Assembly: GCA_963662155.1 (NCBI GenBank)
Contig: OY759269.1
Span: 9,505,698 to 9,569,697, forward strand
DNA length: 64,000 nucleotides
Direction of reading: 5' to 3'
Origin: Lamellibrachia columna
Taxonomy: Eukaryota > Annelida > Polychaeta > Sabellida > Siboglinidae
Shown here: piece after piece, positions 3,501 to 54,500 of the stretch
Layout of the letters: each line of letters starts with the position of its first letter
How positions within the stretch are numbered: position 1 is the stretch's first letter
Made by a program: the position numbers and the translations under genes
The notes under the pieces: generated by a model
What the model saw: the letters and a program-made list of their open reading frames with translations, nothing else
Database searches by the model: none
What the model was told of the DNA's origin: nothing

Positions 3501-6500
3501 TCATCGAGTGGCGCATGTCAGGTGGTGCAGCTTGAAGGTCGTGATTACACTGATCCAGCCTTCAACATTGAGTTTGGCGTGGCTGACGACCGCAGCGAAG
3601 TGGAACTCTCGTACTGTGTTGGCACGTTCAGTGGTGGCTGCGATGTTGTAGATAATGAGCCACTAGGTGGTGCATCGACTGTCGTGGCACGGGTGCGTGG
3701 AAATCATCTCGGTAGAAAGCAGTGATTATGATCCAGAGGAAAACTCATATTTTAAGAAGTCAGCTGAGGCAGGTTTTAAGATATACAGCTCTGGAACTGG
3801 GCTAAATTGTGTATGCTTAAAAGTCAGGAGCATAATAAGTAAGAAAGGTTAAAGAAGAATAGGAAAGAAGTGGAGAGATTATATATCAATTCAAGATGAC
3901 ATAATGTTTTGGAAGGAAGGAAGGAATGGAGATTATATATCAAAGAATGTATTCAAATTAAAGTTCGCAAAATAGGAGGAAGCAGATTGTGAGGAAGCAG
4001 TTGTAAGAAAGTATTATTTGTGACGGGATTATCAATTGTTGGAACAAATTATCTGAAAACTGTAGAGGGCTAGCTTGTTTAAAACTAGAATGTGCAGATA
4101 CATGGATTTATTGTCAGACAGTCAAATGCAGTGTGACTTTCTGATCAGTTTATTGTGCTTTCAGACAATGATACAGCGCATACCCTTGTACTTCCGAGTG
4201 AAGGCACAGAACTCGATGGGACTGTCATCCACGACATCGTGTCAACTGCCAACGTATGACATGACACTGCCTGAGGGACGTATCACCCCTGACTTCAGCA
4301 GCACCAGTCACCCGGGACTGCTCCAAGGGTCTGCTCTCGTACTCGATGACTCAGTCGTTGTCAGGGAAATGGTAGGATAACCATGCCGTAGATTATTATA
4401 ATGATATAGGTAACTAGATTAGTGGGGCGCGATAGCATACCGGTTAGAATGCCGGACTCTCAATTGAGAGAACCCGGTTTAAAATCCCACTGCGGTCGCT
4501 TCAAACCTTTGGCAAGTTTGATTACCTCACATAGCCACAGTTCACTCAGCTGTATAAATGAGTACCTGTCAATGCAGACAGTAGTGGATATGTGAACGAA
4601 TAGTCTGCGCAGTAATTGTAGCATGGCTGAATGCTTCCCAGAGAAGTTGAAGTGGCGTTGGCATGAACAGGTCTGCCAGTGTAAAGCACTTTGAGCAGTC
4701 CTAAGGACTTGATACCGCGCTATATAAGAACTTACCTTTACCTTTTTACACTATAAATCATTGTAATGATGTAGGTAATGATGCAATAGATCATTGTAAT
4801 GGTGTAGATAGTGATGTGATAGATCATTGTAATGATATATAATGACATCGTATATCATTGTAATTATGTAGATACTTTTGCAATATATTGTAATGATATT
4901 GGTAACTACAATATAGATCATTGAAATGAATGGTAACTATGCTATAGATCTTTATTGTGTTATAGATAACTGTGCTATAGATTATTGTTATGATATGCAT
5001 AACTTTGCTACAGACCATTGTAAGAATACATATATAACTATGCTATGGGACATTGTAACTATACATATAAAAACACTACATAATTCCAGTGATATAGATA
5101 ACAATGACATAAATAATATGCCACTAATGAGTTATTTCTAGTATACTAAATATACTTTCTAGTATACTAAATATAATTGCCAGCCTAATTAAGATTTGCC
5201 AGGTAGTTATATCCCAGTTTGTCTGTTAAGATAAGTGCTGGGTAAAGCAATGGTTCCCATAGCTCCCACATAGCTGACTGACAGAGTGTAACTGTTTCAG
5301 ATAAGTGCTGGGTATGGCAAGGGTTCTTGTGGCTCCCAAATAGCTGACTGACAGAGTGTAACTGTTTCAGATAAGTGATGGATATGGCAAGGTTCTTGTG
5401 GCTCCCAGATAGCTGACTGACATAGTGTAACTGTTTCAGATAAGTGCTGGGTATGGCAAGGGTTCTTATGGCTCCCAGATAGCTGACTGCCAGAGCGTAA
5501 CTGTTTCAGATAAGTGCTAGATATGGCAAGGGTTCTCATGGCTCCCAGATAGCTGACTGGCAGAGTGTAACTGTTTCAGATAAGTGTTAGATATGGCAAG
5601 GGTTCTCATGGCTCTCAGATAGCTGACTGACAGAGTGTAACTGTTTCAGATAAGTGCCGGGTAGGGCAAGGGTTCTCATGGCTCTCAGATAGCTGACTGA
5701 CAGAGTGTAACTGTTTCTGATAAGTGCTAGATATGGCAAGGGTTCTCATGGCTCCCAGATAGCTGACTGACAAAATGTAACTGTTTCTGATAAGTGTTGG
5801 GTATGGCAAGGGTTCTCATGGTTCTCAGATAGCTGACTGGCAGAGTGTAACTGTTTCAGATAAGTGCTAGATATGGCAAGGGATCTCATGGCTCTCAGAT
5901 AGCTGACTGACAAAATGTAACTGTTTCTGATAAGTGTTGGGTATGGCAAGGGTTCTCATGGTTCTCAGATAGCTGACTGGCAGAGTGTAACTGTTTCAGA
6001 TAAGTGCTGGGTATGGCAAGGTTCTTGTGGCTCCCAGATAGCTGACTGACATAGTGTAACTGTTTCAGATAAGTGCTGGGTATGGCAAGGGTTCTTATGG
6101 CTCCCAGATAGCTGACTGCCAGAGCGTAACTGTTTCAGATAAGTGCTAGATATGGCAAGGGTTCTCATGGCTCCCAGATAGCTGACTGGCAGAGTGTAAC
6201 TGTTTCAGATAAGTGCTAGATATGGCAAGGGTTCTCATGGCTCTCAGATAGCTGACTGACAGAGTGTAACTGTTTCAGATAAGTGCCGGGTAGGGCAAGG
6301 GTTCTCATGGCTCTCAGATAGCTGACTGACAGAGTGTAACTGTTTCTGATAAGTGCTAGATATGGCAAGGGTTCTCATGGCTCCCAGATAGCTGACTGAC
6401 AAAATGTAACTGTTTCTGATAAGTGTTGGGTATGGCAAGGGTTCTCATGGTTCTCAGATAGCTGACTGGCAGAGTGTAACTGTTTCAGATAAGTGCTAGA

Positions 6501-51500: not shown

Positions 51501-54500
51501 ACTCAGCTGTATAAATAAGTAACTGGCTACAGACAGAGATGGATATCGGAACAAATAGTCTTTGTGGAGTAATTGCAGCATGGCTGAATGCTTCCCAGAG
51601 AAGTCGAAATGGCATTGGAATGAACAGGTCTGCCTGGGGTGAAGTGTAAAGCACTTTGACGGGATACCACGCTGTATATGAACATACATTAACCTTTGTA
51701 CACTGCGTGTGTTTTGTACACTGTATGTGTTCTGTACATAGGACACTGAGGATACATCTGCGAGCCTGCTCCAAGGCCCACAAGTGCAGTGAGATGTCTG
51801 TCAAACCCATGCTAATTGTCCGTGAGTGTTTCTACAAATGCTAATGGCTAATGTTTGCCCTTCAGTTAGCAGCATCACAACTGATGCGTCACAAGTCAAG
51901 GTGATTTTCTTACAGAGTAATATGACAAATGCAACTTTCATTGCCTCATCCAGACCACCTGGACACGTGGCTCTGTGGATATCAGTGTCTGTCACTGCTC
52001 TACCAACAGGATATTTATCAGTCATTATAACTTCCATGATTTTAGTCATAGTTTATAAAAATTAACCCTTGTTACTGTCAACTGTCATGTTGCATGTGTC
52101 GAACCAGGATGTCATGAGGTTGACTGTTGCTGTCTGCAGGTGACACTGACACTGTGGCTAAGACTGAAGCAGGTGATCTGACACTCAAGTTGGTAACATC
52201 TGGTGACACAAAGAACACTGTCACCGTGAAGACAACAAAACGTAAGTTGACTACATCAGCTGGGAGGGACCGATTCAGTGAGATCATCAGTTCCTATGTT
52301 GATTAGGATCATCAAGTGTACACAAATATATCAGTCACAAGTTTCATCATATATTAATAATGAAAAACGATACATCATAATTTGCAGTTTAGTAATTAAT
52401 TTCACATACTGTACAAATTGGATGATTTTTACCCAATTTTATGTGTTGGAAATGCACATAAGTGGCGTGTTTTGCAAGTGGTCAGGCTTTACACAGACAT
52501 TACAACTTACTTGAAGTGTAACATGATTCTTGCACTTACACCCCAACCAGTCTTTACACAGACATTACAGCTGACTTGAAGTTTAAAGTGATTCTTGCAC
52601 TCGCATCCCAGTCAGTCTCTACACAGACCTTACAGCTGACTTAAAGTATAAAGTGATTCTTGTACTTGCAGCCCATTATGTCTTTACACATACATTAGAA
52701 CTAACTTGAAGTGTAAAGTGATTCTTGTACTTGTAACCCAGTCAGTATTTATACAGACATTACAGCTGATCTGAGGTGTAAAGTGATTCTTGCACTAACA
52801 TCCCAGTCAGTCTCTACACAGACAATACAGCTGACTTAAAGTGTAAAGTGATTCTTGCACTTGCAGCCCAGTCAGTCTTTACACATACATTAGAGCTGAC
52901 TTGAAGTATAAAGTGATTTTTGCACTCACAGCCTAGTCAGTCTTTACACAGACATTACAGCTGACTTGAAGTATAAAGTGATTCTTGCACTCACAGACCA
53001 GACCAGTCACAAGATGCTGACCGGGGGTTTTCTGTCAGTCGATGACTTGACTGCCCAGTATCAGTCAGGGGCGTCGGACATGTTCAAGTCATTCATTGTC
53101 GACCCAGAGTCAACCAGGGACAAGACAGACAGATACTTGAGGAACAGGTGGGAGATTGGGTTATGAAAGGTCACTTAGTATATTGTTCTTGTAGACTCCT
53201 ACTTAAAGAACAGGTTGGAGATTGAGTTGTGAAAGGTCACTTAGTATATTGTTATTGTATGCTCCTACTTAAAGAACAAGTGGGAGATTGGGTTGTGAAA
53301 GGTCACTTAGTATATTGTACTTAGGTAGCTGGGGTGGCTATTACATGCTTGTCTTCAATTGAGTAGTTTCAATAGAAGTTTTTAAGATAAACTAACCATT
53401 TCCTCACAGATTGTAGTTGAAATACTGTATAATATTCCAGATTAATAAAATGTTGAGTTTTTTATTTCGTTATGTTGCAAGAAATAGCCACAAAATGTGA
53501 AATTATATTGTTTTGAGAAAATCCCCAAAGAAATAAATGACATACATATAAGTATGACAATGTCACTGATAACTTTAAAGTAGATTTTGGCTAAGATAAA
53601 GAATTACGTCTGCTACACCACCATGAATGAATTAAGCAAAAAGTTTAATAACAGCTTAAAGGGGAACTGAAGCAATTTTGTGTTATGGCGTATAGGGAAA
53701 AAAGTTAATTATACCTCTTTATAAAGCAATAGTTAGACCTCATTTAGAATACTGTATACAAGCATGGAGACCATATCGTAAGAAGGATATAGATACGCTT
53801 GAACGCATACAAAGGAGAGCAACTAAAATGATTCCAGAACTTAGAGACCTTAGTTATGAAGAACGCCTGAAAGAATGTGGTTTAACAACTCTAGAGACAA
53901 GGAGGTTAAGAGGAGATCAGATTGAAGTTTTTAAGATATTGAATGGGTATGAAATTATTGATAGAAATATGTTTTTCTCACTCAAGAAGGATAGCAGAAC
54001 TAGAGGACATGAGGTAAAATTAGTAAAGGATCAATGTAGATTGGACATCAGGAAGCACTCGTTCTCACAGAGGACAATAAATGAATGGAACAAATTGTCT
54101 ACAGATTGTGTAACTGCTAGCAGCGTGAATATGTTTAAAAACAAGGTTGACACATATCTCAGGAGGGCGGGCTATAAGTAGATGAACATTGTTGGACTCT
54201 CGATAAGCCAATGGCTTCCTTGTCCACTTGCCATCTGGGCCTTTGGCTTGGATGGCAAATCTTGTTAAAATCTGTTAAATATTTAAATATCTATTATCTA
54301 ACTATGCATTAATGGTGACAGATACCTGCTAATTTATGAGATAAACTGAAAAACTGATTTTGTTCGAGACCAAAATCGACAAAATACATCACTGCGTATC
54401 GCCATCTTGTTGTCGAAACGAGTGGTTTGAGTCGCGTATATCTAATCAATGTAAATTTTCGATTTTTTGCGATTTATTTCGTAAATAGGCATTCTGGAGC

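Follow-up and report, generated by a model that had tools for sequence, protein, structure and literature searches.

In the 64,000-bp stretch of chromosome 9 of the vestimentiferan tubeworm Lamellibrachia columna (Annelida, Siboglinidae) analysed here (C9:9505698-9569697, hereafter the window), which holds most of one giant FN3/PAN-domain gene, 12 minisatellite arrays have a repeat unit that lies across an exon edge. Seven of these arrays are of the acceptor type (exon starts 8589, 18954, 24529, 40520, 41760, 48780 and 52932) and five of the donor type (exon ends 20711, 25408, 37910, 42009 and 53147), with units of 38–107 bp in about 3–62 copies, and they matched one to one the twelve arrays listed in a preliminary description of the sequence, with exon numbers offset by 1–2. 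We consider it likely that the arrays are minisatellites of the 'mirage' type known from amphioxus, with births biased to splice junctions and tolerated if the copy adjoining the exon is the one that is spliced.

Exons were taken from a splice-aware dynamic-programming gene model (49 exons in the window, 980..53147, plus strand) checked by tblastn of homologous proteins, and arrays from Tandem Repeats Finder (TRF). Gene model and homologues concurred on the exons that adjoin arrays, with support from the L. satsuma protein P0001 (90% identity) up to about 31.5 kb, from the Ridgeia protein P0011 (65%) up to about 29.3 kb, and from P0046, a more distant L. satsuma relative (about 50–80%), from 36.5 kb onwards. 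Exon edges are accurate to a few residues, more loosely at 24529, 25408, 37910 and 42009, and the start of exon 52932–53147 may be off by up to ~50 bp. Tandem arrays are notoriously difficult to assemble and the exon model is computational, yet an assembly artefact or wrong exon calls would be an extremely improbable source of the pattern: the assembly was made from HiFi reads, with fragments averaging 12–20 kb, longer than the window arrays (from the portion of PMC13080331 available, which also lists an alternate haplotype, RNA-seq and Ensembl annotation as resources for this species), the units differ from one another, the exons are backed by homologues, and the same anatomy recurs in myosin genes.

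At the acceptor of exon 8589–8724 lies an array of about 49 units of 70 bp, including 59 exonic bp (5229..8647, on the plus strand like all window arrays described here), with the AG kept in 36 of the 48 copies found. The exonic half of the unit was matched by both P0001 and P0011 at nearly every copy in tblastn searches, and each protein holds this exonic segment once, continuing into the exon from the last copy only. Exon 18954–19195 is preceded by about 9 units of 105 bp with 84 exonic bp (18124..19037; AG kept in 8/8 copies found), the acceptor at 24529 by about 7 units of 40 bp with 10 exonic bp (24250..24538; 8/8 copies found), and that at 40520 by about 23 units of 75 bp with 24 exonic bp (38845..40543; 21/23). 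The other acceptor arrays consist of 3 units of 64 bp with 50 exonic bp at 41760 (41619..41809; AG kept in 3/3), about 8 units of 76 bp with 5 exonic bp at 48780 (48163..48784; 9/9 copies found), and 8 units of 65 bp overlapping the start of exon 52932–53147 (52481..53001), where the AG is kept in four of the eight copies found.

Donor arrays have the mirrored arrangement, with 5 copies of 107 bp including 69 exonic bp at donor 20711 (20643..21550; GT kept in 5/5), about 62 copies of 38 bp with 7 exonic bp at 25408 (25402..27752; GT in 61/62 copies), 4 copies of 60–72 bp with 33 exonic bp at 37910 (37878..38124; 4/4), 23 copies of 82 bp with 9 exonic bp at 42009 (42001..43884; 23/23) and 3 copies of 66 bp with 14 exonic bp at 53147 (53134..53322; 3/3). 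Exons 41760–42009 and 52932–53147 carry an array at both edges, and are those reported as such in the preliminary description, under the numbers 40 and 51. The 107-bp donor array is interrupted by an unrelated insertion at ~20945–21340 built of CAAATAATAGTATAGTGCC-like repeats, and is probably older than this insertion, since the insertion splits it. Between 0.07 and 0.84 of the unit was exonic across 11 window arrays, and the junction thus has no fixed register within the unit. Insertion of a satellite from elsewhere was ruled out as an origin, as the exonic halves of the units match the local exon. Three arrays, 4751–5069, 12703–13545 and 34211–34425, are internal to introns, and the 47-bp unit of the second has self-complementary ends (CCAGGGG ... 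CCCCTGG).

Homology to Ridgeia indicated that the gene reaches upstream to about -25654 in window numbering, and three further junction arrays were found in this part, which had not been seen in the preliminary description, bringing the gene to 15 (nine acceptor and six donor). These are a 76-bp donor array at -23379, a 72-bp acceptor array at -2607, adjoining an exon placed by homology and not predicted by the gene model, and a 34-bp acceptor array at -25660, in which the copy at the exon was recognised by motif with the TRF end 54 bp short. Two of the five upstream arrays are non-spanning. Most of one upstream intron is taken up by one 59-bp array about 14 kb long (L009 7498 to L011 1784; about -22502 to -8216).

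The spare splice sites within the arrays are mostly intact: a motif search allowing up to 6–9 mismatches in 24 found 270 spare copies across the 15 arrays, of which 237 retained the AG or GT, and many score like the working site. Retention of splice sites together with part of the exon would be expected if the spare copies were used for proteins with variable repeats, and at donor 37910 the next spare site is indeed open and in frame (unit of 60 or 72 bp), while at 25408 the reading is open for two units, though the 38-bp unit shifts the frame. However, if splicing moved to the next spare site, 11 of the 12 window arrays, all but that at donor 37910, would introduce a stop or shift the frame, which fits non-use of the spare sites. 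In the 10 window arrays other than those at 37910 and 25408, the frame examined runs into a stop at the next site, and for 8 of the 12 units the length is not divisible by 3; acceptor arrays were read in the frame of the real exon, a check that is relevant only for units that are a multiple of 3, with the others frame-shifting anyway. Moreover, the exonic segment is present once in the protein models of two tubeworms at the 70-, 105- and 107-bp arrays, these being gene models and not transcripts, and following this frame check we regard a role in coding diversity as very improbable.

Chance placement of the arrays was evaluated by collapsing each array to one unit and placing this unit at random, with 98 exon edges in the window; coverage of edges by whole arrays was not used as a statistic, as long arrays inflate it. 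Among the 18 window arrays with a period of ≥20 and ≥2.5 copies, 12 span a junction, as compared to 3.3 expected (P = 6.9e-6). Addition of low-copy arrays gave 12/24 spanning with 4.3 expected (P = 2.4e-4) at a period of ≥20, and 12/26 (P = 3.5e-4) at a period of ≥10, the short arrays 5135–5175 and 22351–22391 being counted only in these two larger sets. The 4-bp array 41397–41526, the array 20954–21083 nested in the insertion and arrays beyond 53330 were excluded from the window counts, and some adjacent TRF rows were merged by hand. The preliminary description had excluded chance on the ground that exon edges are a tiny fraction of the locus; the placement is indeed non-random, but this ground was worded too strongly, as a collapsed unit meets an edge in ~18% of placements.

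A random sample of twenty 10-kb pieces at round coordinates, used for array density and composition only, confirmed that minisatellites are generally abundant in the genome (879.69 Mb), with arrays of period ≥20 (48 in about 194 kb) taking up 26% of the non-N bases. Three of the twenty pieces (L013, L016 and L031) consist to 88% or more of one array, with units of 68, 101 and 123 bp. Ab initio exons in these pieces were too unreliable as the basis of a genome-wide junction test, and were dropped. The units of the sampled arrays had a mean guanine-plus-cytosine (GC) content of 0.431 versus a background of 0.395, and exons are richer in GC than unique intron (0.51 vs 0.36), which is what would be required if minisatellite seeds prefer GC-richer sequence and GC-richer exons thus collect arrays at their edges. 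Placement weighted for this preference nonetheless gave P = 6.7e-5 for 12/18 arrays and P = 0.0014 for 12/23, with weights derived from only 48 sampled arrays, and we consider composition a distinctly unlikely cause of the excess.

Junction arrays are not confined to the giant gene. Of 77 listed myosin-head matches, the best 30 were inspected with 220–300 bp flanks (60 edges), and a junction-spanning array was present at seven of these 30 unrelated exons. Four are donor arrays (L045 and L049, both 34 bp; L052, 28 bp; L056, 30 bp) and three are acceptor arrays (L050, 45 bp; L054, 69 bp; L057, 101 bp), while five other arrays of period ≥20 in these loci miss the junctions (L039, L042, L044, L046 and L063), which is near the density of the random sample. 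At the seed density of that sample, 0.94 spanning arrays were expected (P = 5.6e-5), and with assumed units of 30–80 bp the P value lay between 2e-6 and 0.001. Seeds were estimated at about 2.4 per kb at edges versus about 0.33 per kb across the flanks and the random sample, an approximately 7-fold difference from a small sample. The myosin exons thus partly answer the question raised in the preliminary description of an enrichment elsewhere in the genome, and the giant gene does not stand alone. Two of the myosin-head matches, to identical profile positions, lie 492 bp apart (C6:44937057-44937152 and C6:44937549-44937644) and represent a duplicated, perhaps mutually exclusive exon.

In the upstream part of the giant gene, three of the four arrays with ≥2.5 copies span a junction (P = 0.0055) when the motif-recognised copy is included, and several observations weigh against a junction bias or reduce its apparent size. 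By TRF boundaries alone only two of these four upstream arrays span, the 34-bp array ending 54 bp before its exon (P = 0.07), and both upstream P values rest on a rough edge count. The window was chosen for its unusual look, and its P value is hence optimistic. The myosin control comprises 30 exons of one domain family, a sample rather than a genome-wide count, and at L054 the profile match itself extends into the array; re-placement of the arrays within each myosin locus gave 7/12 spanning versus 2.3 expected (P = 0.0019), or 3.2 expected without exon-only positions (P = 0.013). In L033, a paralogue on the same chromosome, only two of nine arrays of period ≥20 clearly span a junction, with one more touching a donor. 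Four window arrays (44566, 46270, 50816 and 51695) end 4–9 bp before an acceptor and contain no exon bases; two of these, 27 units of 51 bp at 44566..45926 and 12.5 units of 25 bp at 46270..46582, abut the exon starts 45933 and 46589 and stop 7 bp short of them. The latter is probably the array that had been described as ending exactly at an exon, a description that is close in position and inexact by these 7 bp. Because four arrays stop just short of the acceptor, arrays may be drawn to the surroundings of the exon and not to the junction itself. Finally, use of the exon-adjacent copy is predicted from the genomic sequence.

Some of these observations would be accommodated by tolerance only, in which tandem duplication is uniform, exonic duplications are purged, and those that are intronic or cross an edge persist, without junctions being favoured. 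A genome as rich in minisatellites as this one gives many arrays a chance to lie near exons, and the upstream count by TRF boundaries and the L033 count, for which no statistics were calculated, are as such a model would have them. However, uniform placement predicts 3.3 rather than 12 of the 18 window arrays, and 0.94 rather than seven in the myosin sample. A retention bonus for arrays with an undeletable exon-side end could add to the numbers at junctions, by a factor that was guessed at <2-fold and not computed. Tolerance, which the preliminary description put forward as a possible cause, accounts for the persistence of the arrays and not for the excess at edges, as it fails to predict more arrays at junctions than in pure intron; as the sole cause we regard it as unlikely, and we prefer an explanation by biased mutation near junctions, to which tolerance, selection and composition are the alternatives.

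The paralogue L033 has three exons equal in length to those of the window gene (158, 130 and 190 bp), and bears junction arrays of its own with other sequences: one small exon has both an acceptor and a donor array, and a short duplication starts at the donor of another. The window counterpart of the doubly arrayed small exon has no array spanning its edges. As the arrays of the paralogue differ from those of the window gene, the birth of junction arrays is a recurrent event. Two of the window arrays, those of 75 and 82 bp, were used as DNA queries and identified at least 33 and at least 24 places, respectively, including the window, on many chromosomes. By table coordinates, relatives of the 75-bp array have about 1–32 units elsewhere, and the 82-bp array about 1–20 outside the window and 23 inside, and the two lengths do not rise and fall together: C4:52.30 Mb, for instance, has about 7 units of the former and 20 of the latter, and C9:9.99 Mb has 32 and 11. 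The only copy that was read (L064, C8:16241380-16242279) contains two exons and introns at 94–96% identity with the array junction in place, and has an in-frame stop in its second exon. Intron-containing fragments related to the giant gene occur on many chromosomes, and within one long exon the same tally of stops (4 TGA, 1 TAA) recurs at six related places; pieces of the gene, along with their junction arrays, may travel on a duplicated or mobile segment.

The copies also bear on selection for the arrays, by which repeated splice sites or units would aid splicing (U1/U2AF recruitment, exon definition) or regulate the gene. The largely intact spare sites with many at working-site score, and the presence of arrays in conserved genes such as the myosins, are compatible with such a function. 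Concerted homogenisation gives intactness too, however (unit identity to the array consensus was 0.82–1.00 in eight arrays), and the genomic copies, some of them probably pseudogenes, have related arrays of anything between about 1 and 32 units, while the paralogue has its arrays at other junctions. Selection is rather unlikely on this evidence, and the spare copies may well be nearly neutral.

Under the favoured mutational bias, a short contiguous genomic segment astride an exon-intron junction would become tandemly duplicated, and slippage or unequal exchange would then lengthen and shorten the array on the intronic side of the junction in use, every new unit bringing a copy of the splice site. 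The mRNA would stay normal as long as splicing takes place at the unit next to the exon body, leaving the spare ones inside the intron. Seeding would be biased to exon edges, about 7-fold over neighbouring sequence in our small sample, in a genome where minisatellites form at a very high rate in general; if the bias has a mutational cause, polymerase pausing or R-loop/break repair close to splice sites would be candidates. A further extension, that minisatellite birth is targeted genome-wide to exon-intron junctions by a process tied to transcription or splicing, in tubeworm and also, through convergence or shared ancestry, in amphioxus, is conceivable and we put it forward tentatively, at somewhat below even chances.

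The giant gene itself extends beyond the modelled exons, with additional homology at 479–556 and downstream at 63182–63337 and 63922–63999. Its product is a giant protein that is probably extracellular. The top relative of the draft protein is an L. satsuma protein (90% identity over 52% of the draft), followed by Ridgeia piscesae (65% identity over 48%) and amphioxus proteins (about 41%), and several relatives bear FN3 and PAN domain annotation; within the first 802 residues of the draft, PAN_1 alone passed the Pfam cut-off. Other features of the window are a pure TG repeat of 821 bp (60109–60929), open reading frames at 9182–9972 and 53696–54178 that by eye resemble reverse transcriptase fragments of non-long terminal repeat retrotransposons, a region (4430–4740) that by eye resembles a tRNA-derived short interspersed element, and a dispersed element at 12–203 with at least 39 other places at 83–87% identity.

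If correct, a splice-junction mutator would keep re-copying splice sites into introns, and thus provide raw material from which splice sites could shift, exons extend and introns be gained. Should the bias be genome-wide, it would represent a mutation process concentrated at positions that are among the most constrained in a gene, in two distantly related phyla, and would tie the birth of tandem repeats to transcription or splicing as a concrete source of splice-site turnover and intron gain. The arrays also raise a question of splicing, namely the choice of one site among dozens of near-identical ones.

Other systems share single aspects with the tubeworm arrays. Splice sites repeated in tandem arrays are also found in polyubiquitin genes, with dual-specific splice sites, and in human introns within tandem repeats (PMC10809524, in part), but the polyubiquitin repeats are coding units spliced stochastically, whereas the tubeworm arrays are intronic and mostly frame-breaking if used. 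The Rogers model of intron gain by tandem duplication of AG/GT proto-splice sites, as cited in the relevant part of PMC3087553, likewise involves tandem duplication of segments bearing splice signals; no new intron of this kind was seen across the exons covered by L033, including the array junctions 48780, 52932 and 53147, and since three L033 exons have the same length as those of the window gene, the introns there look older than the arrays. Among annelids, the earthworm metallothionein gene has a repeat array in intron 1, a comparable case of intronic minisatellites, with no junction-spanning units described in the relevant passages of PMC12783039, and the corresponding passages on the Ridgeia genome (PMC9921365) add nothing on junction arrays. 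No report of junction-spanning minisatellites in annelids, or anywhere outside amphioxus, was found among the titles listed from an open-licence library. Such arrays may be common in the phylum.

The closest system is that of the amphioxus mirages, a likeness suggested in the preliminary description that holds for the anatomical features testable here. In the accessible parts of the two reports, mirages are described in Adh3, the globins BflGb6 and BflGb9, troponin C and PGBD5, with 3 or 6 units in BflGb6 and reverse transcription PCR suggesting undisturbed splicing (PMC3087553; PMC3902484). On this partial description, both systems have units of tens of bp to ~160 bp across the exon-intron boundary of ordinary genes, affect 5′ and 3′ edges, and keep the AG or GT in many but not all copies. 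The tubeworm arrays differ by their host, an annelid and not a cephalochordate, by their scale, with as many as 62 copies in an array and as many as 15 junctions affected in a single gene, and by a recurrence measured against a control sample. Variation in copy number between alleles or somatically is a further trait of amphioxus mirages; in tubeworm the comparison covered different genomic places, at which related arrays have about 1–32 and 1–20 units. Junction-spanning tandem duplications are thus already known as amphioxus mirages, and what is new here is the phylum, the scale and the measured excess in unrelated genes.

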